From positions 6,899,001-6,963,000 of the forward strand of contig NC_133903.1 of the NCBI RefSeq assembly GCF_964199755.1: a DNA stretch of 64,000 nt. Direction: 5' to 3'. This DNA comes from Larus michahellis. Taxonomy: Eukaryota > Chordata > Aves > Charadriiformes > Laridae. Shown here piece by piece: positions 6,301-40,300 of this stretch (position 1 is its first letter; the number at the start of each line of letters is the position of its first letter). The notes beneath the pieces were generated by a model. That model searched no databases. It had not been told where the DNA came from and was given only the letters and a program-made list of their open reading frames with translations. The position numbers and the translations under genes are program-made.

Positions 6301-9300
6301 CTCCAGGCTGAACAACTCCAGCTCCCTCAGCCGCTCCTCGTAAGACTTGTGCTCCAGACCTCTCACCAGTTTTGCTGCCCTTCTCTGAACACACGGTCTT
6401 GCAGGCAGGGCAGGGGGTGCCACAAGCGGGTCCCATGCAGGCAGAACCTAACAAATCCCCCCCTTTTACCTTTGGACCTTTGGGAGCTGGAAAATCTCTT
6501 GCCAGATGGAGAAAAGCCCCTTGTTTTGGTCCTTCAAGCCAATCTTCATCGTCTGCACCATCTGCACGCTCAGCTCCTTCTGGCCTCGGCCATGCAAGAA
6601 CTGCAACACAAGCGAGGGCTGGGGGGGACGGGCACCGCGGGGAGGGAGGGGATGCCCGCGACAGCCAGCTGGAAAGCCAGAGACAGAGGCACCTCTCGCT
6701 CTCCCTTGTGTTGTCCATTAAAAATAACACAGGGAACAGGCTGGACATTTTAGGGATCTGCCTGGGACAGTTTTTTTCCCTCCATCCCCATCCGAGCCCA
6801 GCTCAAGTCAAGAGGCGCAGCAAGCCCCTGTCCCCCAGAGACCCCCGCAGTGACACCAGTACCTGCAGGGTGTTTATGCAGGAGCGGATGTCGTTCTCCG
6901 TCTTCTCGCACAGCGCCAGCAGCGCGCCCGTGTCCGCCCGCATGCCCTGCCGCAGCGCGATCTGCAGGAGAGGGGGGTCAGCAGGGAGGGCCCGTCGGCT
7001 GGCGGGGGGGGGATGAGAGGAGCCCTCGGCCCCGCCGCACCTCGCAGAGCCGCTGGGCCAGTCGGGACGGCGCCGTCTGAGGGAAGTTCAGCAGGAACGA
7101 TTGCTGCCGCAGCGGCCGGAGGGCAGGGACGTACCTGGCAAAGGGAAGCACAGGGGTCTCTGAGCGACCCTAGCAGAGGAAGAAATCCAGCCATTAATGC
7201 TCCGCTCAAAGAGAGACGGGTTATTCAGCAGCCACCTGTACACCACTGCAGGCCTGGGCACGCACAAACACAAATGTACTCTCACACCTAGCCACAATCA
7301 CCCCAGCAGGTACAAAACCGGGGGGTGTTCAGGAAAGCTGAGCATGTTGCAGTTTTACTTTTCATAATTCACTTCTAAGCCATGGGTCTGATGGCAAATC
7401 TTTGACTGGAGGTGACAGCAGTCGCCTCCTCGCTTGGGACAGGGGTCTCGGCTCTCCATCCCTCCCCGGACACGCAGGCGATACTAACTGGTCGTTGCAG
7501 ATGCAGATGATGGGCCTGAGCAGCAGTCCGCCCTCACGCCGCCTCCTCCGGCCCATGCCGGCCGCTGCCTCGCCCTCCGCATCCTTACGGTGGATGATGT
7601 TTAGCAGCACGTTGATAGATGCCTTGGGAAAAAAAAAATAATAAAAATCAAGCACTGAAGGGATAAATTCTTGCTGTTCAGAGGCAAGAAACCGCTCCTG
7701 AAATGGATGCGCTGCCAAGAGGGCAATAATTAAGCAGTTAATGCAAAAGGTGGCCAGATCCAGGCTGGGCTTACTGCGGGCGCGCCGTCTATCTCATCGA
7801 TGATCAGGCAGTTGGGCTTCTCGTTGGCACCCAGCACGGACTTCATCTGAGTGGCAGCTTCGATGCGGGTTTTGAAAACCTCGGGGCTGCGGTCATCACT
7901 GCAAGACGAGTCGGTGCCAGGCTGCTGTGGCACAGCATCTCCTCTGGCACGCCACCACCTCCACACGCCACCACCTCTGGCTGCTTCTGGGGCAGGGCAG
8001 GGCTGGGCAGCCGGCGCAGACTCACCTGGCGTTCATCTCGACGGCATTGTACCCCGCGTGCCTGGCGATCACGTGGGCCAGCGTGGTCTTTCCCAAGCCG
8101 GGTGGGCCACAGAGCAGGGCTACCTGCGGCAGAGAGGTAACGTCAGCCCGGCAGGCAGCGAGGCAGGGCTTCCTCCAGCACCGGCTAAGGCCGCCACGCA
8201 AGGGGATGAGGCTCTGCGTCCTGCCAAGCGGTCTTGGGAGCTGCTGCACTGGTTTGTAGGCACATGGGAAGAAGGGAAAGTCACTGGAGAAAGGAATAGA
8301 AACTCTCAGAAGTGACAAAGTCATCCTGGCAGCATCTCTCATGCATACGTTTAAGCTTGCAGGGCAACAGATAGAAAAGGCTGAACAAAATCCCTCCCAG
8401 AATTACACTCCTGAGAAGCAATGCTGTTAGGTTTTGTTTCTCCTTTTTTATATCTTCTCACTGGACAGGTTGAAGCTGGTTAGTTGGCCTTGTTATGTTA
8501 TCTCTGCTCTCTTTACCATTTGAGCATCATCGCTCTTTGCTGGATGCAGAAATTCTTGCTCAATGGCATGTCACGTCTGCCCCTAACAAAAAAAAGTCAA
8601 GACCAACCTCTGCTAAAAACGGTGCGACTTTCCTCAACCAGCCCGTTTAATTTGGCTGCAGAAGGTCTGTTCCTCTCCCCTTATTATCACATTACCCAAG
8701 CCAAAACAGAAGGAGAAATGATAAAACCCCACATTCTCTAAAGAGAATCAAGGAATCCAATTTTTCCTGGATCTGTACTGGAAGAGCCTGCTCCTCACTG
8801 TGGTGGTGGGATGAGGGGGATTGGAGAGAAGACCCACCACAGTGGCCTCCTGTCCTGCTCACCTTGTATTTGGGTCTCTTGTGCTGGTCCAGCTCAGCCT
8901 CCAGAATCTCCTCTGTGAGCTGCATCTTCGTTTTCCACTTATTCTGCTGTTCCTTGGGCTGGTTGAATGGAGGATGAGTCTCGGCGCTGGGCTTGGCCTT
9001 CTTCACAACCTTCTCCTTCCCAAACACCACAGTGTCCCAGAGCTTGAGCCACTTCAGAAGGCAGCGGTTTGTGTACTGCATGTGGGGCAAGAAAGCAAGG
9101 AAACCCCATCAAACCTTGGAAGGATCCGGCCAAGGAGAGAGGTAGCCCTCTCCTTCATGGCTTAAAAACCACCGTGGCAGCAGAGGAAGGAACCGAGCCC
9201 GGGGAGGCAACGCAGAGAGCTGTCTGCCCAGACAGACCTCGAGCGTGCAGCACATCAGCCCCCGCCATGGAAGAGGCTGCCCAGGTTTCCACCTGGCATC

Positions 9301-11516: not shown

Positions 11517-12380
11517 GACCCGCACCGCTCCCGCCCGCGCCGCGCTTCCGGCCGCCGCGCCGCCGCTGATTGGACGCGGGACGCCGGACGGCGGCGGCGA
11601 CGGCGCTGATTGGACGCGACGCGCAGCTGGACGCGGCGGCGGCGGCGCTGATTGGACGCGACGCGCGGCGCGGGCCCGGTGCCGCCGGTTGGTACGTTGT
11701 AGCCATTCGCCCGCCCCGCCCGGCCCGGCCCGGCCCGGGGACGGCGCTGCAGGTCGGCCCAGGACCGGGGGAGGCGGGACGGGGGTCGGGGTTGGGTCGG
11801 TGCCGTCCCCTCCTCCGTACGGGTCCCCTCCGCCGTGCGTGTCTCCTACGGGGCGCCACGGCGTGCGGTCCCGGCCGGAGCCACCGCGATCGCGACCCGG
11901 CCCTGGTTGGCAGCGGGAAGGGCGGCGGGACCGGGGCTGGGGGGCAAGTGGGAGCAGGGGAGGCCGAGCCCCGCCGGCGGGCTGGATCGGCTCATCACCG
12001 TGCGGCTGCCGGGCCTCCACGCGTGACATCGGGACGGGGATGGGGCCTCCACGGGTGACACCGGGACAACGGGCGGGCTTCAGGACCCGTACGGTGTGAC
12101 ACTGGCACGGCTGTGACTGTAGCGCACCGGTACCGCTGCGGGACTGCACAGTGTGACACCGGTATCGGTGTGGCCCAGGGACCCGTGCGGTGACACTGGT
12201 CCGACTCCAGTGCAGGTGGGGGTACCCCAGCCCCGGGCCCCGCTCCCTGCCCGCTCTCGCTGGGTCCCTTCGCTCCCCGGGGTGCTGCGCCCGTCCCTGG
12301 GGGTGCCCAGGCTGCAGCTGGGGACTCTTCCCACCCCGCTCACCCCGATCCCCCCTCACGCTCCCCGCAGAGCGCTGGCC
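11517..12380. promoter_or_regulatory. CpG-rich bidirectional promoter between CHTF18 and RPUSD1
   Basis: The 864 bases between the two divergent start codons are very GC- and CpG-rich, and the richness continues into both first exons. A CTTCCGG (ETS/GABP-type, reverse CCGGAAG) lies at 11545-11551, about 30 bases upstream of the CHTF18 ATG. The CHTF18 start itself sits in ATGGCGG, a YY1-like word. No TATA box was seen. The head-to-head arrangement implies shared regulation, but transcription starts cannot be placed from sequence. Confidence 0.75.
11561..11662. promoter_or_regulatory. Triple inverted CCAAT-box array (NF-Y type)
   Basis: The word GCTGATTGGACGCG occurs three times, with ATTGG at 11569-11573, 11609-11613 and 11651-11655. 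Spacings are 40 and 42 bases, close to four helical turns. ATTGG is the reverse of the CCAAT box bound by NF-Y. The array lies 50-140 bases upstream of the CHTF18 ATG. Confidence 0.7.
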
Positions 12381-13911
12381 ATGGAGCCGGGCACCATCGA
12401 CAACCTGTCCATCCTGTACCAGAGCTCCGACTTCATCGTGGTCAACAAGCACTGGGACATCCGCATCGACAGCAGGATGTGGTACGAGACGCTCACCCTG
12501 CAGAGCCAGCTCAAGCACCGCTTCCCCGAGCTGGCCGACCCCGACACCTACTACGGCTTCAGGTGAGCGGCCGGGGACCGAACCGAGCTCTGCCCTGCCT
12601 CCGAGCTGGCCTCGGCCGGGGGTGCTCCTCCATCTCCCATCTCCTCCCCAGGTTCTGCCACCAGCTTGACTTCTCCACCAGCGGGGCCCTGTGCGTCGCA
12701 CTCAACAAAGCAGCGGCGGGAAGCGCCTACAAGTGTTTTAAAGACCGGCTGGTGACCAAAGCTTATCTCGCCCTGGTAAGCCCACCCCACCAGGTCCTGC
12801 TTCTGGACGTAGCTTCAGGTTTTGCTAAATTGCAGCTTGGCCTCTGCTTCTTGCTGTCCCGGTGGTGGTGAGGAGCGAGTGCCAGGGCTCGGTTTGCAAA
12901 CCGGTTTTGTGCCCTGCAGGTCAGGGGCCACGTCAGCCAGAGCCGAATGACGATCCACTACGCCATAGGGAAGAACACCACTGAGGGCATGACCCACATG
13001 ATGTGCATTGACGGGACGGAGGGTGAGCGGCTCTCGCGCCCTGCCTGTGCTGCCCGGACCAGCCGGGCCATGCTGGGGGGAGCTGACCCCCCTCCGGATC
13101 TCATTGCAGGCTGTGAAAATCCCAAACCTTGCCAGTCGGAGCTGATCGTGCTCGAACACGGGTCCTACAGCGGAGACCCCGTAACGAAAGTGCTGCTGCA
13201 GCCGCTGACAGGTGGGAGCTCGGGGGCACACGGGCAGGGGGGCTGCGGAGGCTGGACAGACAGAGGAGCAGAGGTGCCGCAGCGGGACCTGCACTTGTGC
13301 AGCCCTGGGCCTTGGTTGCAGCATGGTGATGTAGTGAAAAACAAAGCCTAGGAACAGCTGAGCAGAGCTAAGAGCCACACTCAGCTCACGGAGGACTCAG
13401 GTTCTCAGAGTGGGGGGACAAATGCCCTTTGGTGCATTGTCACGTCGCACCACTGTGCTTTCAAGGGATAAGCCGTGTCCCTGATTCCTCGACTCCCGCT
13501 CTCCCCCTAGGGCGGACTCATCAGCTCCGGGTTCACTGCAGCGCCATCGGCCACCCCATCGTGGGGGACTTCACCTACAGCCACAAGAAAGACAGCAGTC
13601 CCTACAGGATGATGCTCCACGCCTACTACCTGCGCATCCCCACCAGCAAGGAGCTCATCGAGGTCTGTGCGCCCGACCCCTTTGTCACCGCAATGGACAG
13701 CAACTGGGTGCCCCACCACGTCACTCACCGGCTGGATGAGACCATCCAAGAGCTGAAGGACAAGATGATGCAGAAGGGGGAAGAGGAGGAGAGCCAGGAA
13801 GCTGTGCTCGGTGGCGGAGGAGAGGAGACACAGCACGAAGCCAAGAGCCCGGAGACGGAGGAGCAGCGAGCCCGGTGTGAGCAGTGGTTGGCCGAATGGG
13901 CTTTGGAGTGA
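12381..13911 (+). CDS. RPUSD1: RNA pseudouridine synthase domain-containing protein 1
   Basis: RPUSD1 belongs to the RluA family of pseudouridine synthases; its substrate RNA is not settled. Five exons are seen: 12381-12562, 12652-12775, 12920-13022, 13110-13211 and 13511-13911. Together they make 912 nt and 303 residues, against about 312 in human. The start follows human MEPGS..NLSI (here [14 protein letters not shown]). The family signature [19 protein letters not shown] is intact with its catalytic Asp at residue 67, and [20 protein letters not shown] is the second conserved RluA block. The last about 90 residues are acidic and poorly conserved, ending in [10 protein letters not shown]. 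There is no obvious N-terminal targeting peptide. All splice sites are GT-AG. It is divergent from CHTF18 and shares its CpG island. Nothing in it looks broken. Confidence 0.96.
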
Positions 13912-19039: not shown

Positions 19040-22000
19040 ATGGTGTGGGCAGCCCCAGCAGCCATCGCTCTCTGCCTCCGTGAGTTATACATCTCGTCCC
19101 CGCAAAGCTGACCGTGTCCCGGGACCCTCTGCCATCCCCGGGCTCTGGGGATGCTCCAGCCCGCGGCGCTTTTCATTCCCAACCCACGTGGCTTTGGTGC
19201 TCCCTGTGCTCTGCCTCCTGCTCCCGTCAGCACCCGCAGGCGGTGGGAGTTCTTCCCAGCTGCAGGGCGTTAGAAATCTGCACAAACCTATTCCATGGGG
19301 CAGATTTCTCACTTTTTGCCTTCCAAACCCACCCCGAGGCGCCCCGGGTTGCTTGGGCTGGCACAGGCTGCAGGGTGATACGGGGGCTGCTTTCTGCATA
19401 GCGTTGGCCAGCATTTGCTAACTATTATTAAATTGACAAGGAAAAGACCCTTCCTAGACTTTACCCTAGAGCTGCTTTATAACAGCCCCCGACCGCCTGC
19501 ACATACGGTCGTGGATGTTTTATAACATGGATATTTTATAACCCCCTCCCGCTTTGTTGCAGGTTTCCCCGCAGACCTCGTGAAAGCAGCAGCGGTGAGT
19601 CAGCGCCGGCAGCTCCAGTGGCTCCGGATACGCCAGGGCTTTGCCGAAACATCGCAGCCGGTGACCGGGAGCGTCAGAGCTGCCGCGGTTCCCCCGGTCC
19701 TCGGCTTCAGGGAGGCAAACCATCGCCTCCCCTCTGGCCCCCTGTGCAGCCCATGGCCCTGTCCCGTCCCATCCCTCGTTCACCCTCCGCCTCCATGCCC
19801 AGCTCCCAGACCGAAGGTTGGGACCCTAAACTTGACGGGCACCCAGCTAGGGGGAAGCAGGGACACACCTGCGGCTGAAGGGTCCCCACTCCTGAGAGCA
19901 GCTGTGGTGGCTTTTGCCCAGGGCAGCCTCGGGGCTGCTGCCGTCCTCAGCGGCCTGTGGGCAGCAGCCGCCGGTCTGGGCATGTCAGGCCCCATTCCCC
20001 GCTTGGTCCCTGTGTTTAAAAGCCCTTTGTCCCTCATTGACTCTGAGTGTCCCCCCTCTCCCCCTCCCCAGGTCACCCTGGTCCTCGGAGCCGTCCTGTC
20101 TGCCACTGAGCAACACACCGAGTAAGTACCGGCCCCAGATGGGGTCTCTGACAAGCTGGGGGGGTCTCAGGGGATGCAGGCAGTGGGGGGGGTGGATATA
20201 GCGTTTCTCCCCACATCCGTGTCACAGCTGCTGTGACAGGTCACTTGGGCTGGGGAGGATTTAGAGCCTTGCGCAGCCGGTTCTGGCGCCGGTGCCCAGG
20301 CTGGGGTTTCAGCTGCAGCGGCTTTTGTTATAGCACAAACACACCAAGAATTCCCTTTCCTTTATGGATGATGTGAGTCAACGGGAGCCTCGCCCAAGCC
20401 GAAATCCAGGCTCTGCTGGTTTCTCCCTCACCCAAAGCCCAGGGTATGGTGGGCACCTCTTGCCACCACCCCGGCCGTGGGGATGGGCACCCTCATGGCT
20501 GCAGGGCATCCCCTTCGGCACCAGGGCCGGGGGACGCTTTCACGACACCCCATGTTATTCCCACTTACCCCACGGTCAGGGCAAAGAGGGATTTCCCAAG
20601 GGGACAAGCGGATTCTTCCTCCACGGGGTGTTAGGGAGCTAACGTGGACAGTGAAAGGCAACCGTGCCTCTCCATCGCAGCCTCTCCGCCTCGGTCCTGC
20701 AAGGTTTCCAGTGCATCCCAGCCAGCGACCTGCCTGCTGCCGACATCCTCGCCTTTGCCCAGCGTCTGCAAAACGAAGGAGCGGAGCTCAGCGGCACCCA
20801 GGTGGGCAATTGTGGGGGCCACAGACCCCGCAGAGCCCGAGGGGGCGCGGGGAGCTGGGGGGTGCCAGGGAAAAGGGGCTCTCACCGCCTCAGCGTTGCC
20901 AAGTAAAGCCTCTCTCTGCCCAGCTCTCCTGCCTGGCCAGGCTGCTCACTGCCAAGAACCTGACGGCCGAATTCGGCACGTACCCACCAGACCTGCTGCT
21001 CTTCTTCGAGTGAGTATGGAGGGCAGCGCACAGCTGTGGTTTTGGTGCCGAATCGCAGCACCCAGCCCGCGCCAGCGCGGCCCTGGCACACCCCGGGGCG
21101 CACAGGACTCCGCGTGGGAGAAGAGTATTACAAAATCTGCATTGTGATGCCCGCATCTGCGGGCACCTTCAGACCCACATGGGGCACATCCAGCCCTGCC
21201 AGACCCCCTGGTCCTCTCCTTGCCAAAGCTGGGGCCATGCTGGCCATGGCACGGGGTTGGGTAGCCCCCACCCTGTGCCTGAGATATCCTCCCCTGGGAA
21301 AGAGGAGACCTCCCCCAACCCTCGCCCAATGCACAGCTCATTGCTCAGAAGGGGGTGACCATTTAAAACGACTTTCCCCATGCTCCCCACCCAAAAAACA
21401 TTAAAGCTCTCCTGCCTGGACACGAGGAGCCCTTTGCCCTGTTCCTCCCGGCCACGCTGACTCTTGCTCCCCGCAGCTTGTCCGAGGTGCGTGGTGGGAC
21501 CTGCCGAGAGTTTTACGCCCGGGCTTCCCGCGGGAACCTGGACCTGCTGCCCATGGGCTCGTCCCGGCGGACGGGGCTGCTGCGCGGGGCACTGGCCTGT
21601 CTGGTGAGTGGGGAGCGAGCCAGGGGTGGCCAGGGTCCCCCCGCGCCCCTCGGCCGGTGTTTGTACGAGGTCGTCTCTCCCAGGGGGTGAGGAGCAGCCG
21701 CCTGAGCCCCGAGCAGCTCGACAGCCTCGGAGCACTGGTGTGCGACATGGAGCCTGAGACCATCACGGCCTCGGACCCCAGCATCCTGGAGAACCTGAAG
21801 CTCTGCCCAGCACTGACGGGGGCCCAGCAGGACGCCCTCAACGCCGTGCTCCTCGGGGGGGGCACAGTGTATGGGTAAGGAGCCTCCGTCTGCTCTTACC
21901 GGGCAGGCAATGAGCAGAAGGGGTGGCGTACCCATGAGGATGCTGAGCTGGTCCTTCTCCCGACGGCTGCAGGGATCCTTCGAGCTGGGATTTACAGACC

Positions 22001-25000
22001 CTGCAAAATATGGGGCCGCTCCTGCTGGCTTTGAACCAGACCACGCTGAGCTTGGTGGCCGAGGTAAGTCCCCTCCCCTCCAGACCTCGGGACGAGTTGC
22101 CCATCAGCCAGGCCAGCCCTGAGGCTGCGGGACCCAGCACCCTCTGCCCCCTCAGCAGGCAGCGCGGGAGGCTTTCAGCAGGAGCATCGCGGCCACGTAC
22201 GGCAGCCAGGGACGTTCCCAGCGGGAGAAGTCCCTGACCCTCCTCAGGGCCTTCAGAGCAGCGTCGGCTTCGTCTCACCCCAGGCTGAAGCGGAGCACAG
22301 ACCGTGAGTGTTTCCCATCACTGCGGCCAGTCCGGACCAGTTCAGAGCTCTTGGGGAGGGAAAAAAGACCCCAGGCTGGTGAGCACCTGTGTGCTCCCAG
22401 GGAGGGGGACAGGACCAGGCAGGAAGCTGTAGGATTCCCTTTAACTGGGGAGATGGGGGAAAATGATCTTACAGCACGCTGGGGTGTTTGCTCTTACCTG
22501 GGAACAGGAATATGAGAGCAACAGCTGGGAAGGAGCTGGAACAGGGGGAGAAAACTCCTGGAGCTGGGTGGGAGCGGCGCCAGGGGAGGATGCTGCAAGT
22601 CTGGAGGATGCTCGTGCAGGCGACGTGGGAAAGGGTTCATTTTTTATTTGCCTTCAAGAGGACAAAGCACACGTGGTCTACAGAAACATCACCAGGTTCT
22701 TCATGAATAACTTTAAGGGATGAAAGCGAATAAGGCACCTTCATGGGCTGGGGACCCAGAGGATGGGAGGACGATTCTCAGTCCTGCCCTGCAGGACGGC
22801 TTGAGCTGCATTATGGCGATTCCCTGTTCATTCATCAGGGCTCTTCTGAGGGGCTCTGGGGTCCTGTGGCAGGACCAGGGCCAGGCAGGAGGGAGAAGAT
22901 GCCAGTCTGCCCAATGTGCCCAATGTGCCCTCCTTGCCCACAGGCTGCCCGTCCACCCCCATCACGGCCAGCATCATCTCCAGCTCCTTCTTCATCATCG
23001 ACTACAGCACCAGCGAGCAGCTTGACCTCTGCCTGAGCAATGAGGTTTTAGAAGCAAACCTGGAGCCTCTGCTGGAACAGCCGCTCCCCACGGAGTACCT
23101 CATGGTCATGAAAAACAAGCTGAAGCAGGTGACGAGTGACAGAGGGCGGGAGCCCCTGCACAGCCCCCCGTTAGCGTGGGCACGCTCCGGGATGGGCGAG
23201 ACTCGCTGCGGGAACGGGCATCATCAGACGCAGGGATGAAGGCGCCTGAGCGTGTCCTTTGCGCCTGTTTCTGCCTTCTTTTCCCTTCCCTGACCCTCTT
23301 TTCTGTCCCACTGGCCTGCCCCTATAGATTTACGGGTCGGAGATCCCAGAGAAGCAGCTGAAGCAGTTCGGGCGGCTGGCTCGCCAGTACACGGCGGAGG
23401 AGATCAGCCAGTGGCCACCGTTGTCCAACGACACGTTCTCAGCCCTGCTCAGCCCCTCGGATGGCAAGTGGGAGGCTCCCCAGGTAAACCCCCCGGCAGC
23501 AGCACGCGCATTTCTACCGGGAGCACCTTCCTTCCCTGCCTGCGTGCAACCACATCAACTGTGTTTCCCAGGTCCAGCAGCTGCTCAGCAGGTACCAGGC
23601 CACAGGGGGCACCTTGACCGGATCCTTGCTCTGGAAAATGGGTGGGAGAAACCTGTGTAACCTGCAGGAGGAGCAGATCAAGCAAATACCTCCAGAAGCA
23701 ATCAGGTTAGACACTTTTTAGGGGTGCTTTTCAGTCCTGCGAAGCCCTTGGGACCAGGGGGGAAGCGGATGGTGGGATAGCAGACTCCCACCTCCATTTT
23801 GGCCCTGCCGCTCGCAGGCAGCACAGTGGGATGGCCACGTCCTGCTCCCCGCTCCTGCCTGAGCCACCGGCACTGCGGGCAGGGACAGACCACTCCTCTC
23901 CCCACACCAACAGCAGGGCTTGAGCTGTGCTTTGGAATGGTGCCTCTGGCTCTAACCGGTGACCCTCCCTCTCCCCAGGACTGCTGGACAATTAAACATT
24001 TCTTCTTGTTCTCAAACCAAGAAGGACCAGCTCTACAGAAAAGCCCAGGAGGCCTTTGCTGGCCAGGCTGGCACCACCAGGGCGTATTATTGCCAGATTC
24101 GGTCGTACCTGGGTAGGTGTTTCAGCCTTCACCCTCCTTCCCATGGTGACAGAGGTTGGATACCTCTTCCTCGGCCAGGGGGGTTTGTCCACACTAGAGA
24201 CACATCCAGCAGTCTCCAGAACCCCCCCAAAAGCATTGTAAGTGTTTGCACGTGTCTAGGTGCCCCGTATGATTTCTTTAAGGTGGAGCTCCAGCAAAGG
24301 ACCTGAAAGACTTGGCTAAAGCTGGCATTATCATAGACATGGACATAGACACCTTCCTTGCCCTAAATCCCGATGAAATGCAGGTACGTCCCCCACCACG
24401 CTGCTCCTCTTTTCCCCGCTGGAGGGCAGGGCTAGTTGAGGGCTGGGGTTTGAGGCCACAGCCCCATCGGATCACCAAGTCTCTTATTTTTTTTTACCTT
24501 TTGAAATTGTCTTTCGGAAGTTATTACTTACTGTACAGTCCTGCTAGAAAAGCGCCTTGCGGTGCTGCCAGCTGCGAGGATGGACAAAGACGTTGTTGCA
24601 CGTGTATTGCAGAAACTCAGCGTCACAGACGTGAAAAATTTGCTCGGGGAAAACCTCGCTTACCTGAAGGAAGCTGAAAACGAGACCTCGGTGATGCGCT
24701 GGGTGAAGAGCCAGTCCCAGCAGGAACTGGACTGTACCCTGGGAATCGGCCTGCAAGGAGGGATGCAGGAGCCCAGCCCCACGGGGACCACCGCCACTCC
24801 CCACCCCACCACCTCGGCCAGTGTCACCCCCACCGTCCCCGCGACCACTGCCTTCCCCACTGCCCCCACCTCTATCGCCACTAGCAGCCTCCCCACCGCT
24901 AATTTAAGTACCAGCCCCCACAAGGCCCCCACCCCAAGTACTATCAGCCCAACCTCCCCTCACAGCACTCCCCCACGCACTTACACCACTGCCCCCAGTT

Positions 25001-26462
25001 CTGCTGGGAGTCCCCCTGCCACCTCCACCGCCGCACCTCCTACGACCACGGGCTCCATTGTCCCATGCTCCACCCACCAGTCTGCCACCTCAAGTAAGGC
25101 CACCCCCCCCACTGTCACCCTCCTCACCACCATCCTTGCCACTGTCAACCCCAACGCCACCTCTCCCAGCTCCGTCCCACCTCCGGCTGCCACACACGGG
25201 GCCACCACGACCACCACCAGCGCTGTTAGTAACTCAGCCGTTACCACCCACAACGCCAGCACCCCACTGGTGTCCGTGAACCCCCCAGCACCTGCAGGTA
25301 CTATCAGCCCTGCTCCCGCCACCCGTAACACCACCACGCCGACCACCCACAATGCTCCCAGCACCCTTGTCCCTACCTCCACCTCTGCACCCGCCGCCAC
25401 CGCAGCCACAGAAATGAACCTCCCTCCCCACAAGCCCACCCCCACTCCCAACTCCACTGTCTCCACCCAAAAGAGTGTCCCCTCCTCAACGGCCAAGACT
25501 ACAACATTAGCTTGCAAGACCAGTGCTCCTCCAGCATTTCCCGGCCCCTTTTCCACCACCAGCAGCAGTGAGACCACTAAAAACCCACCCACAGGCGTGC
25601 CAGAGCCACCGAGACCAACACCTGGCGGATACATCAACCTGCACCCTGAAGCTGGTAAGATGTGAATGTTCAGAGTCGGGAAAAGCTTAGGACCCGATGG
25701 CAAGGCAGAAGCTTGACGAGTAGTAGCTGATCCACCTTTTTCCTGGCCAGATTCAATCCGGTGTGCTGCTGTCCACAAGAAACCCCCAAGTAGTTACTGG
25801 CTAGACAGGCAGCGATGTGGCTCTCCAGGGTGTCAAAGCCCCTGGATCTGGAGCCCACCACTTTCAGGTCCCACGCGTTCTGCAAGTCCGGTGAGGTGCA
25901 CCTTCAGACATCTCGGCATGCCCAGCACCCCTCAACTGCTCTGCAGGGAGCTGGAGTGATTCCATTAATGCCAGGGCACTGCACTGTTTTTCCACAAGGC
26001 AAGGATCTGGCCTTCTGTATTTTAGCCAACACAGTGTTTCTGAATAGGCATCGCTATAAAAGCCCTAAAATCTGAAGTCGTTTAACCCGGCAGAGCTACA
26101 TCTGTAGCTTTAATGACTCAACAGATTTCCTCCTGATTTACGCTGGTGAAAGTTAGAAAACACCCAGTCCCACTGACTATTTACAGCCAGGTGACATTTG
26201 TGCCTGGGGTGCAGGTCAGTGCCCGAGGTGCAGGTACGGGCAACGTCACAAAAAATAGAAAAATGTCATCCTGACACGTGCAGTCCTCTGGGGTACCTGA
26301 ATGCCAAAGCAGGTCTACCGCCCTCACAGCTTACGCGTGCTGTTTGTCTGGATAATCCAATTCTTTCTCATCTGTCTTCTCCCCCTAGGATCAGGATCCA
26401 GACTCTCCTCCTGCCTAGTGCCCATCCTGACAACAGCCTCACTGCTGCGAGGGCTGCTCTGA
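19040..26462 (+). CDS. MSLNL: Mesothelin-family GPI-anchored protein with mucin-like stalk (MSLNL-position gene)
   Basis: Sixteen exons: 19040-19079, 19563-19594, 20072-20121, 20681-20801, 20924-21009, 21477-21603, 21684-21874, 21973-22063, 22159-22303, 22944-23128, 23328-23483, 23572-23705, 23979-24112, 24283-24383, 24613-25654, 26389-26462. They total 2709 nt, 902 residues, with all phases consistent. Order of parts: a short hydrophobic leader (MVWAAPAAIALCL); an MPF-like region (VLQGFQC..., PPDLLLFF, VCDMEP...); a furin-type RLKR at 288-291; CPSTPITAS opening the mature mesothelin-like part; the family motifs YLGGAP and LGIGLQGG; a mucin-like stalk at 584-868; GGYINLHPEAG; then a GPI signal (GSGSRLSS plus a hydrophobic tail). 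The family are superhelical-repeat cell-surface proteins, and human mesothelin binds MUC16. The symbol rests on position and strand relative to human MSLNL. By sequence only 'mesothelin family' is certain. The first two tiny exons are the least secure. Confidence 0.85.
24769..25623 (+). other. Segment coding the mucin-like Thr/Pro/Ser stalk of the mesothelin-like protein
   Basis: This part of exon 15 codes about 285 residues dominated by Thr, Pro, Ser and Ala, the composition of a densely O-glycosylated stalk. Five N-glycosylation sequons are visible (NLS, NAT, NAS, NTT, NST). Only two Cys occur (in IVPCST and LACKTS). The frame is open throughout and is entered and left by family-conserved sequence (GLQGG before, GGYINLHPE after), so this is real coding sequence. 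There is no exact tandem repeat, unlike many mucins. The opposite strand is open over much of it only because of base composition. Confidence 0.85.
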
Positions 26463-28321: not shown

Positions 28322-31300
28322 TCAAGACAAGACCAACATCATCAGGAAACTGATAAGCAGAGCAGGCAGGAGGTGGAGTGTCATGGCCACAGTACCCAGA
28401 GAGGCTGAGGATGTTGCTAAAGGAAAAAGAGGGGGCATCAGTGCAAAGAAATGAACGATTGAACCACTTAAAGCACAACAATCAGAGGTCCTAACATAAT
28501 ACGTACACTGAAATTTCTGTGCGACAATGTTGATGTAACCTTCTTGTGTTCCCCCAGTAAGCCCAATATGCATTTTATCCAATTCTGATTGTTTCTGCAT
28601 TTGGACCCACTCCCAGATGGGGGACTTGTGCTGCCATTTCTTCAGATCACTGAGATTTATCCCCAGCAAGTTCTCAACCTCAGAAACTGTCAGGCTCTAG
28701 GAGAAATCAAAGAACAAGAATTACAGATGTAGGAAATAATACCTCTGACCAAGGAACCAATGAGGTTTCTATTAGCAGAAATGTGAAGTACGAGGAAGAC
28801 AAATTTCTGGTGAGTGGTTTCAACTGGGACAATCTTCCCTTAGGTTAGGGGAATGAACACAATGGCTCCTCAAAGACTATTTCTGCTGTCCTGTGATGAC
28901 AAGTCTCCTACACTCAAGAGGGGGCCCCGGTCCCTGCCCGAATCACTGGGCTTTCTTCCAAAATTGATTTCATTACTGCTAACACTCTTGTCAGAAGACT
29001 TGTCACATAGCTGTCGACTGCAGCCTAATGGATGCCCGTTCCCTGCTCCAGCCACTACTGCTATGAGGGCCTGCTCTAAAGAAATTCCCCAGTAAGACTG
29101 GCTTAGCATCCATGTACGACTCCAAATTACATTCTTACAGAAGTTTCAGGCCGGTTCTCCACTTTCTACTGGTCTAGCATCATTCTGAATTTGACAGAGT
29201 GACTCCCGATTTACACCAATGGACAATGCGACCGAAACCATAATACGAATGCAAGGAATCCAACAATTTGAAGATTCAGCTCACCAGCAAGGAGTCTCTT
29301 CTTAAATTCGCAAAAGTACTAACATCCATGTTCACGTTGTCCTTGCTTAGAGCTTTGAGATCCATACCTGGAGCACCGCCTGGGACCAAAAAGAGAAAGT
29401 ATATCAAAGTATGGAGGACAGCCCCTAAATGAGCAGTGTTGTGTAACTGTATAAGCTAGAGCTATAATGATGTTTCTAAAATTTATTAGGCTGGGGCTGC
29501 TAACAGAGTGAGGTCCAACTGCAAAATATACGGATGCTACTTCATTTTGCTGGGAGGTATTATTGTGTTGGCTGTTAAACCAATCTGCAACAATGCCAGA
29601 TGCTAGACAGAGGTGTAAGAAGAGTTTGCTCAGGCTGTGAATAAATTCTTGGCTTAACAGGGAAAAATCTATGTTTTGTGACATGGAGAAGGGCTGTGAG
29701 ATAAGCGCTAAGCATTAGCAGCTCGATTTCTTGTGGATCTCGCAGATCTTACCCATCCCAGAAGTCATGAGTTTGATTTTCCCTGTGATAGTCTGACAAT
29801 TGATTTGGGCAACCTGCAAGCTGGAAAAGACTGAAACTTTTAACAACCTGGCTCTGAAAATTCCCAAATCTTAGATGGTATTTGATACCCACTCAGCTTC
29901 TGGCTAAGACCTCTGTCTTTCCCCATAATATACTGTTCTTTTACATACCTAGATATGGTTTGATAAGCTCATAGTAAGCAGGTAAATAGTGCTGGTCTGA
30001 GAAAGCACGTTTTGCTTTAGCATATAAGATGTCTTTCGTAAGCTGTGAACAGGCTGAAAGATTCAGAGATGCTAGTCTGCAGAAAAATTAAGATTCAGGG
30101 AGAGAAAAGTTTTTGTTATCTTCAACCTGAACAAATTTTGAACTATTAGTATCTGTCTGGGATTCTCTATGTAAGACAGGTGACCCCCCTCTTCCCAGTA
30201 GATAGAAGAGTTATGGAGAGAAGCTAAGACCAAAAAATAATGGCTCAGTCTCCTGCTTAAAATGGCATGTCTTCCAAGTTACGATAGCTCTGATGGTGCA
30301 TGGTAAGTTTCTAGATTTGCAAAGATGTAGTTAACTGATTTCATGTAGCAGTCTTTCAAAGGAATTTAAATTAAATTTAATTAACTCTTTTCGCTCTAGA
30401 TAAAAGCATGCATGCAGACCATATCTGTTGTCAGCTGAGCTACAATACAGAGAGTTTGACTGCAAATCTGAGCCCTTCCTGGCCTGCAAGAACTGCAGGC
30501 TTTTAAACCTGGACGCAGGGCAGGTACCAAGTTGCTTCCTAGATTTCCTCTCACTGAGTGGAGAGAAAAGGAAAATGCACTTGCTGATGGGAAAGTGCTT
30601 TTGCAAGAAGCCAAGAGCATCACGATATTTGACTCACTTCAAGCTGCTGGGGTCTATCATATTCAACTCGGTCACATTTAGAAGGCATATGTATCTCGTA
30701 CCAATTGCGTTCAGTGCAGTGGCATTCAAGGCATTTCCCAAGTCAACATATCTCCTAATTATTGCAGAAGCCTAGAAACACATTTAATTTTTTTCAAAAG
30801 TTAACCTGAATCAGAATCTATGTTTTCATCCTCAAAAGAAAAACAAATGCAATCATTACAAAAATAAAACTGAATCATTTCAAATATATTTGTTTGGACC
30901 TCAAAGATGAGCAAATCATCTTTGAACCCACTAAGCTAGTCCTAGACCAGCAGCTCCTAAACCAGGAAGCAAACATGGGCAGGAAAGCAAACCCAAATCC
31001 CTACCTGAGCATCAGCAGGCTGATACTTTAGCAAGTCAGCCAGTGTGTCAGCTGAAGTTATCTTCCATTTAGAAATGTCCTCAGGGGTGACAAAAGAAAC
31101 AAGGGAGCCCAGTTTGGGGAGCAAACTTTCAGGATACCCATCAGGATATGTCTGTGGAAAGATCATTGTTATTGCTATGAACACTCATTATCGTGCCTGT
31201 GCTTACGAACTTATGCTTTTTGTAAAATTGATGTGGAAAAGCCCAAAAGGTCTGCAAGGAATAAGAAACCAAAGCCAGTGAGACTCCATGAGCACATCTG

Positions 31301-34300
31301 TCCTTTTTCTGCCTGATAGCTCAGGCAAGCAGGCCCCAGGGGAAGGAACAAAACCTGAAGCACTGTGAATTGAGTCAACACGGATTTGAGTGGCCAGCAT
31401 GCTTTGTGGTGGTGAAGGCTAATCAAATACAGAGAGAGCTTCCCTAGCAGCGGCACAGCCAGCATGTCAAGGGAAATTACTATTTCCCTCCATTTGGTTG
31501 GCACTTGCGAGACCCCATCTGGATACTACGTCCAGAAAGACTTTGACAAAGTCTAGCAAAGACTAGAAAGTCTAGCAGAGGGCCATGCTGGTCAGGAGGG
31601 CAGAAGCAGCACACGACACGCAAAGTGGGGCAGTGGGACTGAGAGAGGTGGGTTTTTAGTCTGAGGAAGAGAAGACTAGGTGAGGATTTTATCACTGTCT
31701 TCAACTAATGGGAGATTTTAGGGAGGATGGAGCCACACTCTTCTCAGGGGTGCACAGTGAAAGAATAAGGACCAATAGGCAATGAAAATTCTCATATTAA
31801 GAAACATATATTTTCACAGTAAAGGTGGTCAAACAGTGGAAGAGGAGCCCAGAGAGGTAGTGGAGTCTCAGTCCTTGGAGACACTTAAACTCAACCGGAC
31901 AAGTCCCTGAGCAATCTCATCAGTAGATAATTTGACATTCTTCAGCCTGGCATTACCTCATCCAGATGCCTCTTCAGCACACCTAATTGCTGAATACTGA
32001 AGGCATAGGTCAGTATCTGAGGGAGGTGATTATCCAGAGAGACGTTTTTCAGGCAAGTATGTAACTGCTCAGCTGTGTACTCAATAGGCATCAAGTCACT
32101 GTTAAGAACCGTGTCTGTTATCCGCTTGTTAGGTGGGCAACCTGTTGAAGAAATTATCAAATGTGCTCAGTATTAAATCCTTTTACTTCAAGCTTTGAAT
32201 GGTCCCTTGCTGGAGATAGACAGGTATGCATTCAGAGTACCACCCCCCTCCCGGGTGACCTGCCACCAAGTGTTTCGTAGTTGAACTCAGACACATTTAG
32301 GGACACCTACAAGCACTAGGGTCAACCTTGATGCCAGGGGGAATGCTGCCATTACAGATCAGAGAAAGCTCCCATACCATCAGCACGCTTATGCCTAGTA
32401 GGCAGGAGTTCTTCAACAATGGTGGCCAACTGTTCCCTTGACAGAGGTGAATTGTGTGCAAAGTTTTTCAGCCAAAGAGTTAAAGCATTCTGCAAGGAAA
32501 AGGTTTCGTCAGGGGGACATTGCAATCTTTGGTGTACCACCAGCATAACAAGTTGCAACTCACACAGACAAGACTGTTAAAGTACAATGGGCAGCAGACC
32601 TGCTGCTATTTTTTTTGGTGAGCCAAAGGCAAATTTCTTAATGCTTAAACTCTATCATATCCCATGCCCCATAAATGATTTTACCTCCTCACAAAGCACT
32701 GTATACAGTCACTACTGCTTTCCACCTCTGGCACTCTTCCAACAACGATCTAGATTTGCAGTTCCACGCTGTCAGCTTGATCAACCATCACTTCTCATAG
32801 ACCATCTATCCCTTTTGGCACCACAATTTTTAAATGAAGACACTATTGAAAACATACTAGACTGAACAACCCCCATCATATTTCCTTCATACTGTGGGAC
32901 TAGGAGTGCTTCCCAAACTCCCCACACCTCTATGAATAACACACCTTGGGGATCTTCTGCAAGATGCTGTGATCAAATACAGGAATCAATCCACTGAGCA
33001 CATTCAAAGTAAAAGCTGACCATGCTGCGGGAGCCCTGCATACAAGAATTAGCAGGGATCAGCTTTCAAGGAAGAACAACAACAACAAAAACAACACTTT
33101 AAAAGCTGACAGGATTATGTCCTTGTACCACCTGAAGTTAAGAAAACACAAGATTTAAATCCTATCTCAATCACTTCCTGTTACACAAAACTTCATTCCA
33201 CCAGAGCAGAAGCAATTGTTAGTAACATGAATAAGGGCAGCTGGATGGGAAAATGGCATTTTAAGAAGTACATTATTATTTTCTTAAGCATGAAACCTAA
33301 AGAATATCTATGGCTTACTATCACCCAATTCAGTGCCAAGATCTCAGGGCATTTGACACAGGAAGAGAAAATATTTTGCCTCCCTTCCCTGGACAATGGT
33401 CTCTGTTAGATACAGCCAGAATTTATCAAGCACCTGTCAGTTTGACAGGTAGAAACAGAATATTTTCTGAAAGTGAATGGCTGACAGACACCTAAAGCTC
33501 ATCTGTGTTCATCAGAACAGTCTCAGAGAAGTTTGGTTAATGAAAAAGAGACCAGCAGAAAGGCTTTTCTAACTAGAGCAGGTGAGAAGTGACAATGTAT
33601 TTTCCAGTGGAATTCCAGGCACACCTTTCAGCTGAAGTTCAAATAAAACAATGTTAAATGTCCAATGTGAAATTCAAAAACTATGAATTATTCAAGTTTT
33701 TGACCAAGCTGGTTGGCTGAAGTTCTCTCAGGACTTAATAGGACAATTGTTTTGTTTAAGCGAACTGTTCTGCTGATGCCCAAGAGAAAAATTCATACCC
33801 GAATGTAGTGTTACCACTGCTGATGACGCTCCTAATAGCCTCTTCTTGATCAGGCAGGAAAGAGTCACACTGGCTTAATTGCTTCAGCAAATTCCCACCA
33901 GAACTTCTAATGTATTCTCCACCCAAGTCACAGACCAGACGTCCCAGAATCTCTGCATTTTCCTTGTTTACCTGTGTGCTAGAAATTTTCTGAAATAATA
34001 CAAGACAGAGGTGTTAAAGAACTGGATGCCATTGTAGAAGAGCGTTGTTGCTCCTGCTGACAGCTGACAACCCCAAGTTCTCCCCAGCCTTCTGCAGAGC
34101 TGTCCCTGACCACGTACCAAACATGCCAAAGCTTCCAAGAGCAGCTCTTTCCGCTGAGATGACTCTCTTTGCAGAACATCAAGATTTGCTTTCCCGATAT
34201 TAGCAAAGTACTGCCTACAGCTTCCTGTTGCTGCATAGTCTGAAGGACTAGAAAGACAAATACTCCATGAATTCTAGCGAATGATATCAAACAGTTGGTC

Positions 34301-37300
34301 AGGTTCAAGGCTGTTCAATATATACTGTGTCCAGTATAACATCTTCCACATCCACAGACTAAACTCTATGCAGCTGTTGTTCCCAAAGATCCTAGCCTAC
34401 ATTTTTTAAAAATTCATTTTCACTTTAAGGAATCTATTGCGAGACTCAGATTAAAATTGCTCAAGATTTGATGCAGAATCACAGCGGGCAGCTACAGGAA
34501 CAAAGAAATCCACTCTGCTGTCTGTTTTCTTTGATGTTGCAAAGGAAAAGCACATTCACAGAGGCCAGAAAGTACTAAAACTGCACACTGGTTTCGTATC
34601 CAAACAGATATATTTAAAAGGAGCTTTCTAACTTTTACATTAATATGATGGATAGCTGAATCTGAAAGGACCTTAAAGCACTTTTGAAAGCTTTCCGAAA
34701 TCTGATTTTTTTTCCCCTTTAAGGAGGCCTGAACAAGTTTGAAATACACATCAAACACGAACTAGTCATCACCAGCTAGGTTATAAAGTAATACCTCTTT
34801 TTCCCACTAGTTACTAGGGTAACAACATGAAAACCATAGCACAGTTACCTTAAAAACAGCAACAGGTCTTTAGGATAGCTATCTAAATCCTTGGGAATCC
34901 CATGCAGCGTCACCAGCTTCGCTAAGCAACTCAGCTGAAAGGACAGCACAGTTTACATCAAGGAAGAAAAAGCCAACATGAAAACATTAGAAAAAAAATA
35001 AAACAAATATAAAGATTTTACTCTGCTCCACAGTAAGGAAAAAAAAAAAAAAAAAAGAGACAGAAATCAGAGGTTCTGGTTCCTGAGAAATCTAGCCAAC
35101 TGGGTCTTGACTTCTCCTGTCTTCGGGGAAATTCAGAACTGTGGGATGGAGACCCAGGACCAGTTACATTTGTTCTAGTCCCTGAAGATGAGAGATTTTT
35201 TGTTCTTGCTGAACAATCCTCCTTGCTATCTTTATGACAACACCAAACATCGCATTTCAAAATGCGGAAACTGACCTGATCTTCTCCTAGCTTGACATTC
35301 TTCTCCTTCATGACTTTGGCCAGCTCCTGAAATCTTTCTGCTTCCATCTCATTGGTAGCTGCACACGTGAAGCCTTGAAGGACCGACTGAGAAAGCCTGA
35401 ACATTTACAGAAGGCAAATCAGAAGGGCAAGGCCTTCAGGAGAAAATTCGGTGCTCTTCTCCCACATATATAATGACAAATACAGCAAGCATAAGCCTCC
35501 CCCATTCTCAAAGTTTAACGTTCTCCAAACTCCATCCCCTCAAAGTTGCTAGTCTTGACTTATGTGGGAGATCAAGAAGCCATCACTGGTCAAATAAACA
35601 TAATCCAGAGACTTGTAGTAGAAGTAGAAACACAGGGACAAACTCTCCATCCCAAGTAGTATTGCTGTATCCTGAATTACAAGATCAGTCTCCCTGTGTT
35701 TTCAGCACATGCCACACATTGAAAGTGAAATGGAGTTGTGCAGGTCCCCGTCACTGAACATAGTTTGCACAGTCTGGGAGAGCTGAGGGAGAAGTCCTTA
35801 AAACTTTGATTCCTTTCTATATGGAAAAGCTTCATTGTGAAATCCACAGGACACTGATGTCAACTCCGTTGTTTTTCCTGAGATATATAATGGTTTTCAT
35901 AATTTTTCATCTCAGATAGGAGAGCCGACAAAAGATATATCAGTCCCACTAAATTTAATGCCTGGAATAGCACTGTGGAAGACTGACACATTCTCCGATT
36001 AGAAACACCTTCCACAGAGGCAGTAAGAAGCAAGGTTCCAGGTGCAGTCTCAGACAGCAGCATCACTTCAGAAAGCAAGTGTGGTTTATGGGTATATTTT
36101 GCAGATAACACCCTGGTAAATCTTGATGCTACATGCCTGTGTTTGGGTTTGCATGTTATTTCCCATCTGCCATTACAGATTGAATATGGTGGGTCTGCCA
36201 TACATGCCAAAGGAAACACGGAAATTGCAATCAAAGCAAACACAAACATGGACAACGGAAGGAGAGAGGAAAAACGCTACCTGCTGAAGTCAGGCTCTGC
36301 CTTCATCACATCACTGAAAAACATGGCAGCCTGTGAAGCAAAGCCAGAGTGTCAACGGTTTACCATGCTCTTCTGCAACATTCACCTGTATTTTCAGACA
36401 GATGTGCAGAGCAGACACATAGCTCTGTAGAGTCCAAGGCTGACACTGAGGGGGTAAGAAGGACACAAGCCGCCAGCATATTACCTGTTCTCGGGTCCAC
36501 TTTTTACTGTTGAGATCCAAAACATTGGGCTTCTCTTCCCCAAAAACAAGCAATGATTTTGGAATGTAACTGGCCAGAGCATCAGGGATATATTTAACCA
36601 GGTCAGCAGGGTGTCCTACACTGGAGGAAATCTTTAAAAAAAGAAAAAAAAACAAACAAACAACAAACCAACCACAAAACGTATAATTCAAATACTGTGG
36701 CTAAAATAAACAATTGCTGGAGAAGAAATGACAAACTGGAAAGAAGCCAGGCAACCTCCCCTGATGATCATCTGGGCATTTCTTGGAGACCTAACACTAC
36801 GAAATATTTCCTGTTTGACATATTCATCAGACTACGAGAGCTGCTTGGAGCTAGTACCTGGGGTCCTAATGAATGGGAGCGGTTCTGTCTCTTATCAGTT
36901 TCCCACCTCCTGGCTTTATGCCCTAAAAAGTTTTAGCAGGCCAGAAAGGAGGACGCGTCTTTCCTCTCTGCCAACACAAACAATGTCTCAACTTGAGGAA
37001 GGCACGTTACAGAACAACACGGTGGTGAACATTATTTCCCTAACGCTTCACACAGAGCCCCATTTGCCCCAGGACATGCTATAGGCAGGGCCTCTGGTGC
37101 CAAACACAGTTCAGGGTCTTTCCTAACAGAGGGAAGATGATAACAACAAACTTGAATGCTAAACACACAACTTGAAGACTGAAGTTATGGTCAGAAAAAA
37201 GGCAGAGAGGTGTTCAAATCCTACACAATCACATGGGAGGATGAAATACTGCATTGCTGAAACATCAGCCTACACTAAAAGGGACTTCCTAAGCCGCCTT

Positions 37301-40300
37301 CCCTTCTCACATGTTCTCACTCCAAACCATGACAATAACCTTTCTCTGAAAGCATCTTTTCAAGTCAGTGGGGAGTAGCTTCCAGGAATACCCTGTAAAA
37401 CAACTGTCCCTTCTGCCCTCATCCCCAGGACCCAGGAGGCTCAGCAAGACACGCTGGCTGGCTGCCAAGGACATCTACACAGGCAAGGTGATAGGGACTT
37501 GAGAGGCTTGTCCTGCTGCACACTCTGTTCAGCAATGACGAACACCCCCGAGGGAATGTTGTCCGGGTGTGCAGGTGTGTGTCAATGCCTGGCCCCAGGT
37601 AACCAGTGTTCTTAGCTGTGAGTCACCAGAGCTTTGCTAATTTATGACGCCTGAAGAGAAAAAGCAACTTCACCTTTTCCACAAATATCATTTTCAGAGA
37701 AGAGGGCAGGGTCGCTATGTGCTGAACAAACTCAGGCAACTTAATGGCTTCCAAGATTACTTCTGGAGACAGACTTTGAAGCGTGCTGCTGTTGAGGCCA
37801 GCCACCAAGCTCCCAAGTTTTGCCAGGCTCTGTCCATTCTGGATCTGAAAAGTAATGCACGCAGGCATGAGTATGTGAAGGGCCAAACATCACTTGCTGG
37901 CAGCTATACCAGGTATGAGCTGCATTTGTGGATCTTATCCTTTGTACCTGGTAGCCAGAGCTGAGCAGTTTGTTGATGATTGTGCTGGACTGCTCAGCAT
38001 TCCAGCCACGAACTTCACCCAGGGCAGGAATAGATGCTTCAAGGTCTTTTTCACTGATGCTGTTTTCAATGTCGGATATGGACAGCCCAACTGCAGCCTG
38101 GCCCAATGCACGCAGGATTGCAGGGGTGAAATGTTCAAACTTTCTCACCAAGGAGGATGCAACCTGAAAAAGTCCCACACAGACAGAAAAGAAAGTCAGA
38201 GCAGCAATGAGGTAAGCCTATGGGATCCTATGGCCTTTGGATGTCTTAAATCACTGGACTTTGTGCCTTAAACTTGTGTGATGAAGCCTATTGATGGACT
38301 GCGTCTCCCCACTAAGATTTTGCACATCATGAAACACCAGCCTGATGCCACAATAAAAAAAGCAAGATTGCCTACAGGAGTGTACACAGGAGGAGGCACA
38401 AGAGTTGATCCCCTCAAGCCTCACAAATTTTGTCTAGATGAATGAAGAACTGAGTCATGGGGCTGAGTGTCAATGGTTTACCTGCAGTTCCTCTGTTGTC
38501 AGGGAGGAGGGAGCACTCTCTCTAGTTATTCCTCTGTGTGTCAGGTTCAATGGGCAGTTCTTACTGATCCTCTGGGCCAAGCTCAAAGCATCGTCTCTGC
38601 TCAGGTTGCTCACTGCCGAGGGGCTCAGGTAGCAAACAAATCTGTCTGGGAGACTGCAGGTGGGAGACAAGGAGGAGAGGCTGCCAGTATGACAGACAGT
38701 GGCTCTGACAGATCTTTCCTTTTTTTCCAAAGGATGCTCTTATCCAGCACATGTTTCCCCTGATTCACTTTAGCTTTGACAATGCTGATGCTCCTGTTCA
38801 CGGAGCGCACTGCTGTGTCAGGCAAAACTGCAAAAACATGCAAGGTGTGCTGCTGGTCATTAGTCGGTGGCTGGCACTGCATGACAGTCATTTCCCAAGA
38901 TTTGGAACTCGTGGTCCGGCCCTCCCCAAGATCAAGTCCAATGCAATTATTTGAAGAATAGACAAATGCTTTAAAGATTTAATGGAAGCAGCCATCAGAA
39001 CCACTGCTCAGCAAAATTCTGCTAAGTCACAGTACCACGCTAAACCGTAAGTCAGGTAGGAAGTCAGGTCAGGTCCTGTACCTCGATAAGGGAAAATCAG
39101 GTCCAGATGTCAGCAGCAAGGTATAGTACACAGCTGTCTCCCGGAGCAAGGTGAGGTTGCTGATCATCTGTATATTGACTGGATCCCTGGCAAATTTTTG
39201 AAGCTGAGAATGGGAGTAAAAAAAAAAAACAAAACAAAAGAAAAAGTTTAGATGAATACTTTAATGTGACAGTCACTTCGGACAGTATGAACAAACCTCA
39301 CTTGAAGCAATACGGTTTTTCTCATCCGGCTTTGAAGTTGCAAGGAAATTTATTTTTCGTTTTCAAGTAATACACTGGGACCTTGCTTTATTTATCTTTG
39401 CACTCCAAGGGCATGGTAAGCCTCTCACTCTATGACTGCTGCAAGGCACAAAGGCAGGAGAGCTGCTAAAAGATGTGGCCCTGCCCCTACAGCATTATGC
39501 ACACATACAGTCATTCACTAAACCAGGCCCAGACATCGGTCCAGTCTTGAGATAAGGTTTGGGTTTGCTGCCCTTATTGACTCCAGTTTGCTTTCTGCAG
39601 AATTACCTATGTGAAATCAACTTCCGTGCAAGTGCCTCTTATCATAAGAAATCATGATGGGGAAAGAAATAAAAACTGAAGTGACTGTTCACCATAAACA
39701 AACAAGAAAAATGTTCCTGCTAGCAGCATCTCCATGAATTTTGGTCAGGGAGGGAAGACAACGTCCCAGACACAGAGTATTTTGCACGCTGCATGTTATT
39801 CATCACCCTGATGAGCCTGCACTTACTGTTGCTTCATCACCAAAAAGCTGCAGGTCTCCAACAGTAGCATGCTCCAAGAAGGATCCAAGATAATTTTCAA
39901 ACCAAGCAGTGGAATTCAGACCTGGAACAGCTGCATTGTAGCATTTGTGGTTTGATCCTGTAAAACAGGCCAACACCATCAAGCTACAGACTTGCACTGT
40001 ATCAGGAAAACAGTGGAGATTGGAGATTTCTGAATGCAGAACAGGCTTCAGCCTATCAGAGAACTTAGTCGGCAGAGAGTTCCCTCTGATCACACTTGAT
40101 GCTCGGATCTGCATGTCTGTGCACTCCTTACACAGGGGACAGGACAGATGCCTCATTCTTGCAAAGCCCTCCAAATATTTCATCACCAGTCTCTTTCTTC
40201 CTCCCTTCAAATCTGCCAAAAACTTTTTGCAGGACATTAAATTTTTGCGTGCAAGCTACTGCCTGGAGACAGGGGAGTGTCTTACCTGGGTCCCCCTTTC

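Follow-up and report, generated by a model that had tools for sequence, protein, structure and literature searches.

What a mesothelin-family gene does with a long mucin-like segment inside one of its exons is the question raised by a 64,000-nucleotide stretch of the Larus michahellis genome (NCBI RefSeq assembly GCF_964199755.1, contig NC_133903.1, positions 6,899,001 to 6,963,000 of the forward strand), which as a whole is referred to here as the window. Two mesothelin-family paralogues lie in the window, arranged tail to tail: gene A on the + strand, which carries the segment, and gene B on the - strand (Table 1). The explanation preferred here, which we regard as likely on the evidence of the DNA, is that the product of gene A belongs to the mesothelin family, probably as MSLNL, and has its head carried on an O-glycosylated mucin-like spacer. 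The evidence for the segment is considered first, followed by its splicing and anchoring, the identity of the two paralogues, and the known proteins that resemble this arrangement.

A mucin-like stalk in a mesothelin-family gene

The spliced frame of gene A is open over 903 residues, with GT/AG at 15 of the 15 introns in an exon model built from the DNA. The Pfam Mesothelin profile matches aa 25-583 (E = 1.7e-89; 301.2 bits, curated cut-off 25.8), and the alignment reaches position 584 of the 624 in the profile and stops a little ahead of the stalk; with the stalk left out, a comparison with solved structures returns human mesothelin (best E = 4.2e-39, 138 bits). Read from the DNA, the order of parts is a hydrophobic N-terminus, an MPF-like part, a furin-type site, the head, the 285-residue stalk, a GYIN juxtamembrane piece, and a hydrophobic tail. 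The furin-type motif, a putative cleavage site read from the translation, is aligned with RHKR of gene B; the human mesothelin precursor is cut by furin (PMC2628672; statements from the literature, here and below, follow excerpts of the papers cited). Both human disulfide pairs, C302/C326 and C442/C468 (PMC10035497), are kept in the head of gene A as C297/C325 and C438/C464, according to the alignment to human mesothelin structures.

The stalk is best seen by comparing the two paralogues exon by exon. The 13 exons of gene B correspond one to one with exons 4-16 of gene A, with lengths (gene A/gene B, bp) of 121/121, 86/86, 127/130, 191/191, 91/91, and 148/112 for gene A exons 4-9 and of 185/185, 156/147, 134/134, 134/128, 101/95, 1042/190, and 74/95 for exons 10-16; the largest difference by far is that of the stalk exon. 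Exon 15 of gene A (acceptor ttgcag/AAA, donor CTG/gtaaga) and exon 12 of gene B both start in phase 0, and in both genes the following exon is in phase 1. In the alignment of the exon translations the extra block is residues 54-338 of exon 15, 855 nt in frame, flanked by GGMQE and GYINL; at the same point gene B reads GGTQE-GYINI directly. An earlier, sequence-only reading of this DNA had proposed about 285 Thr/Pro/Ser-rich residues in frame inside one exon, and the phase, length and exon sizes bear it out; its coordinates for the insert, 24769..25623, have the right length and lie one codon away from the position given by the alignment.

The composition of the segment is that of a mucin-like stalk. 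Residues 583-869 (287 aa) include 72 T, 56 P, 43 S, and 37 A (25% Thr, 20% Pro, 15% Ser, 13% Ala), so that Ser+Thr+Pro make up 59.6% of this part versus 19.9% of the preceding part of the gene A protein, and few residues are charged or aromatic (10 K+R, 4 D+E, 4 aromatic). In-frame stops are absent from the stalk and number 4 and 8 in the other two forward frames. Ser+Thr reaches 40.1% in the coding frame versus 14.0% and 10.5% in the other forward frames, a level attained by none of 2000 dinucleotide shuffles (mean 21.5%, maximum 29.6%), and in each of the three sub-stretches tested separately (3/3) the Ser+Thr peak lies in the same frame. A Pro/Thr/Ser (PTS) domain is commonly recognized by at least 40% Ser+Thr and at least 5% Pro per 100 residues; 110 of the 804 100-residue windows of gene A qualify, with a maximum of 46% Ser+Thr, while the stalk as a whole lies near the limit. 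In a predicted model of exon 15, made from a two-row alignment and of low confidence (mean predicted local distance difference test score, pLDDT, 44.3), the head part contains 3 helices and the stalk has neither helix nor strand.

These figures also bear on whether the stalk is functionless filler, a C-rich low-complexity drift tolerated in a linker and perhaps belonging to a decaying gene. C makes up 49% of the stalk DNA and G is low, and the position of the stalk is that of a flexible linker; but 16 of the 16 exons of gene A are open with GT/AG sites, the head cysteines are kept, and it is in the coding frame that Ser+Thr is enriched, and drift is judged an improbable account.

Where the stalk is inserted becomes clear from human mesothelin. 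The human chains align to gene A as far as GLQGG and, once the stalk is dropped from the query, continue through GLQGGIPNGYL, which agrees with the earlier view that human mesothelin runs from GLQGG through NGYL with no stalk; counted back from N584 in the alignment, the stalk replaces I582-P583. The human crystal model stops at G585, N584-S598 was solved apart as an antibody-bound peptide, and most of the major shedding sites are within 582-598 (PMC10035497). By alignment, then, the stalk is located at the junction where the ordered head ends and the shedding peptide begins. Because the insertion falls there, a sequence motif is interrupted and no folded block is split; the proposal that the insertion divides a conserved block is correct for the motif and not for the fold.

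If the preferred explanation is right, the gene A protein would traverse the secretory pathway, many of the 115 Ser/Thr in aa 583-869 would be O-glycosylated, and the extended stalk would be a stiff spacer that keeps head and membrane tens of nanometres apart. Mucin-like stalks extend about 0.25 nm per residue, which would put the head at a height of roughly 70 nm. The stalk may also shield or alter the juxtamembrane region, which is the site of shedding in human mesothelin. It probably originated within the existing exon, in a flexible linker tolerant of insertions, as a form of mucinization.

Among the residues of the stalk (window 24763-25623, + strand) are also two cysteines, C684 and C833, and N-glycosylation sequons at five positions (aa 629, 713, 746, 771, and 812). 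Judging from their presence in the translation, the cysteines could allow dimers; a simple spacer would require neither cysteines nor sequons.

Table 1. Features of the window considered in this study, in order of position (position 1 is the first letter of the window).
Feature	Positions	Strand	Remarks
AAA-domain open reading frame, CHTF18-like, beyond the pseudouridine synthase gene	8025..8402	-	Pfam 1.8e-7
Pseudouridine synthase gene, RPUSD1-like, 5' of gene A	12381..13911	+	Spliced open frame; Pfam PseudoU_synth_2
Gene A, mesothelin family, probable MSLNL orthologue	19040..26462	+	16 exons, 903 aa; Pfam Mesothelin PF06060
Gene A exon 9	22156..22303	+	Furin-type RLKR, aa 289-292, between MPF-like and mesothelin parts
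Mesothelin-type head (gene A exons 10-14 and start of exon 15)	22944..24762	+	Structure alignment
Gene A exon 15: last head helices, mucin-like stalk, juxtamembrane GYINLHPEAG	24613..25654	+	1042 bp
Mucin-like stalk, Thr/Pro/Ser-rich	24772..25626	+	285 aa; alignment of gene A and gene B exon translations
Candidate in-frame cryptic intron within stalk	25094..25534	+	441 nt, donor CAA/GTAAGG; splice-site scan
Gene A exon 16: C-terminal tail GSGSRLSSCLVPILTTASLLRGLL, possible weak GPI-attachment signal	26389..26462	+	Translation, hydropathy
Gene B, 3' part: stalk-less mesothelin paralogue, probable MSLN orthologue	28322..35396	-	13 exons, 567 aa
Gene B exon 12, stalk-less equivalent of gene A exon 15	28507..28696	-	190 bp

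Local order, splicing and anchoring of the stalk

Several observations on the frame, local order, splicing and anchoring of the stalk speak against a head held on a full-length mucin-like spacer at the membrane. Stop-free frames occur in 18 of the 2000 dinucleotide shuffles of the stalk, so the open frame taken by itself is no more than a moderately strong argument. Ser and Thr are not found near Pro more often than in shuffled stalks (87/115 versus 83.8 +/- 6.1), and local order thus adds no sign of tuned glycosylation. A tandem array was looked for in the stalk and not found, unlike the situation in usual mucins; since the large exon is present but the array is absent, the segment is called here a mucin-like stalk rather than a mucin.

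The stalk DNA does contain a faint internal duplication (about 24805-25112 versus 25126-25431, + strand), the score of which is reached by 3 and 7 of 1000 codon shuffles and by none of 200 in a smaller set. A tandem-repeat origin was set aside, since there is no array and the duplication offers too faint a basis. An origin of the stalk by copying from another place in the genome was likewise set aside: a DNA search, in which simple repeats and very common words were skipped, returned the stalk's own copy only. Relatives were also sought with two peptide patterns each in viral and in bacterial/archaeal contigs, where a match could reflect vertebrate contamination, and none of the 19 and 98 pattern matches, respectively, was confirmed.

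Splicing was assessed with matrices derived from the splice sites of genes A and B (27 donors, 28 acceptors), against which 27 real introns were scored leave-one-out. The scan finds one candidate in-frame cryptic intron within the stalk, with a pair score of 16.9 bits; its use would drop 147 codons, roughly halving the stalk. Because this pair outscores 22 of the 27 real introns, a shorter stalk produced by alternative splicing is a serious possibility. In the fullest version of this alternative, the intron is removed in some or most transcripts, giving a long form with a stalk of 285 aa and a short form with one of about 138 aa; that the length of the intron is a multiple of 3 is in keeping with it. 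The matrices were built on few sites, however, and the sequence between the two sites is as expected of protein-coding sequence, with no stops in the coding frame versus 3 and 4 in the others and Ser+Thr at 37.7% versus 16.3% and 11.6%; on balance we consider use of this intron rather unlikely. Such splicing is compatible with the spacer explanation unless the short form exists alone, and that explanation survives a partial removal of the stalk.

Loss of the entire stalk fares less well in the scan. The best in-frame GT-AG pair removing at least 700 nt scores 8.5 bits, lower than 26 of the 27 real introns; since the real intron B7-B8 scores 6.8 bits, whole-stalk removal stays within the range of authentic introns, and from these scores it is unlikely. 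Skipping of exon 15 would shift the frame, since 1042 nt is not a multiple of 3.

Attachment to the membrane by a glycosylphosphatidylinositol (GPI) anchor depends on the C-terminal tail. The best 12-residue hydropathy of this tail, a measure of hydropathy only, is 2.03 in gene A versus 2.94 in gene B, and an Arg lies near its end. GSGS and a hydrophobic tail are retained in gene A at the position of the family GPI signal, with weak hydrophobicity, and a GPI anchor is likely by analogy with the family. Of the GPI signal announced by the sequence-only reading, the hydrophobic C-terminal tail is there, and the attachment site is no more than plausible, in a tail less hydrophobic than that of gene B.

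The weak, Arg-containing tail gives some weight to another alternative, in which the gene A product is a secreted or shed mucin-like protein acting in secretions, its tail unused as an anchor or its juxtamembrane piece cut. Proteins of the mesothelin family have been recorded in such settings: a quail protein, the chicken orthologue of which is annotated MSLNL, in a seminal-fluid proteome (PMC12853081), an ostrich eggshell entry listed as mesothelin isoform X1 and discussed as MSLNL, and a zebra finch eggshell entry named 'similar to mesothelin'. MSLNL is also recorded in chicken tracheal vesicles (PMC8780788), and on the quail and chicken entries avian MSLNL is probably translated, with or without this stalk. 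The secretion and eggshell entries, however, may come from either paralogue, the piece from GYIN to GSGS and the hydrophobic tail remain where family members carry the GPI signal, and human mesothelin is both GPI-anchored and shed (PMC2628672, PMC10035497); a product that works in secretions is a fair alternative but on the doubtful side. The alternatives concerning splicing, secretion, and the age of the stalk (below) can each hold alongside the spacer explanation, and the likelihoods given for them are not shares of a single total.

Identity of the two paralogues and age of the stalk

The sequence-only reading spoke of a stalk on a mesothelin. The mesothelin-type head stands on the profile and structure matches, whereas identity with MSLN probably does not, the gene being probably MSLNL by synteny. 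The first 102 aa of the gene located 5' of gene A match PseudoU_synth_2 (6.5e-9). This gene (+ strand) and the AAA open reading frame (- strand) are divergent (window 8025-13911). We take the two to be similar to RPUSD1 and CHTF18, which are presumably divergent in human as well, and assume a human order of MSLN, MSLNL, RPUSD1, CHTF18 with matching orientations, an order that a literature search did not confirm, MSLNL being absent from both papers it returned. Because the gene order in the window matches this assumed order, gene A is probably MSLNL (also MPFL) and gene B probably MSLN, as judged from the DNA. Against the human mesothelin structures, gene B scores higher than gene A (186 versus 138 bits). 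MSLNL has been mentioned as a human epididymis gene (PMC7436996); the "MSLNL" of PMC10303918, considered as a possible mention of the mesothelin-like gene, stands there for MSLN-low and was discarded.

The two genes account for every family match over the cut-off. A genome profile search with Pfam Mesothelin covered 1,405,500,149 bases in 616 contigs, and the best candidates were scored (13 of 13); 6 exon matches exceed the cut-off, all of them within the window, 2 on the + strand in gene A and 4 on the - strand in gene B. Further family copies could conceivably exist beyond the scored candidates.

The assignment to MSLNL raises the alternative that the stalk is ancestral to MSLNL across many vertebrates, gene B and human MSLN, in their short form, then showing the state of the other paralogue and no lineage-specific insertion having taken place. 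Gene A occupies the MSLNL position by gene order (on the assumed human order), and the lack of a tandem array and the faintness of the internal duplication may mean that the stalk is old. Set against this is the family profile itself: the gene A match ends before the stalk, while the 567 aa of gene B match with an E-value of 4.5e-141 and continue to profile position 621 with no stalk-like segment. An ancestral stalk is a tenable suggestion, which we hold with less than even confidence.

Gene B itself extends 5' of the mesothelin unit, where many open exon-like stretches are found (window 36280-42030, - strand). A 489-aa translation of this region, assembled by visual inspection, reaches 1.1e-5 and 25.2 bits against Pfam Stereocilin, slightly below the cut-off of 26.6; because of this near-cut-off match, gene B seems to exceed human mesothelin in length and to begin with a stereocilin-like part. 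Hen mesothelin has been published as a predicted protein of 797 aa (PMC3163210). Of the six primers in that paper, two can be placed in gene B territory with 2 mismatches and one more with 5, the remaining three lack a comparable match, and none of the six fits gene A at 4 mismatches or fewer; from these matches, the published hen mesothelin looks like gene B.

A stalk on one mesothelin-family protein invites thoughts of MUC16, the mucin to which the sequence-only reading linked it. That link gained no support: the part of human mesothelin to which MUC16 binding has been mapped is its N-terminal 64 residues (PMC10035497), at the opposite end from the stalk. It is a long shot that the bird MSLN/MSLNL locus forms a self-contained adhesion set, in which MSLNL would be the mucin-like partner or a long-reach receptor and its neighbour would keep the short mesothelin form, both a mesothelin receptor and a mucin-type ligand being encoded side by side in the role that mesothelin and MUC16 have in mammals.

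Related architectures and significance

Gene A shares with human MSLN the Pfam family, a head with both disulfide pairs, a furin-type site, and the GLQGG...GY(L/I) junction, but the human protein passes through this junction as GLQGG-IP-NGYL, where gene A has 285 additional residues. Its likeness to MSLNL is one of position, beside the RPUSD1-like and CHTF18-like genes (on the assumed human order). The nearest architecture known to us is that of CD55 (decay-accelerating factor), in which a folded head is followed by a Ser/Thr/Pro-rich, O-glycosylated stalk beside a GPI anchor; CD55 differs from the gene A product in having complement control repeats as its head and a shorter stalk. The acquisition of a Pro/Thr/Ser-rich exon segment by a non-mucin gene is also what has been described as mucinization by Pajic and colleagues (review PMC12776774). 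The cases described in that review are tandem-repeat expansions, often in proline-rich genes, whereas no array is detected in the stalk of gene A; if the stalk arose in the same way, its repeats would, by analogy, have decayed since.

The mesothelin family and mucin-like stalks are each already known. Their combination, a mesothelin head on a mucin-like stalk, is named in no paper among the matches listed by the literature search, as far as titles and the starts of abstracts tell, and the stalk may already be annotated in database entries for bird MSLNL.

As a tumour target mesothelin has been studied intensively, and its normal role is unclear (PMC10035497), a role for which both the shedding of the protein and the distance between its head and the membrane matter. 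If the spacer explanation is true, gene A, with its long spacer at the shedding junction, would offer a natural comparison for the effects of stalk length and of juxtamembrane shielding, and it would exemplify an unrelated gene that bears a mucin-like segment with no visible tandem repeats.

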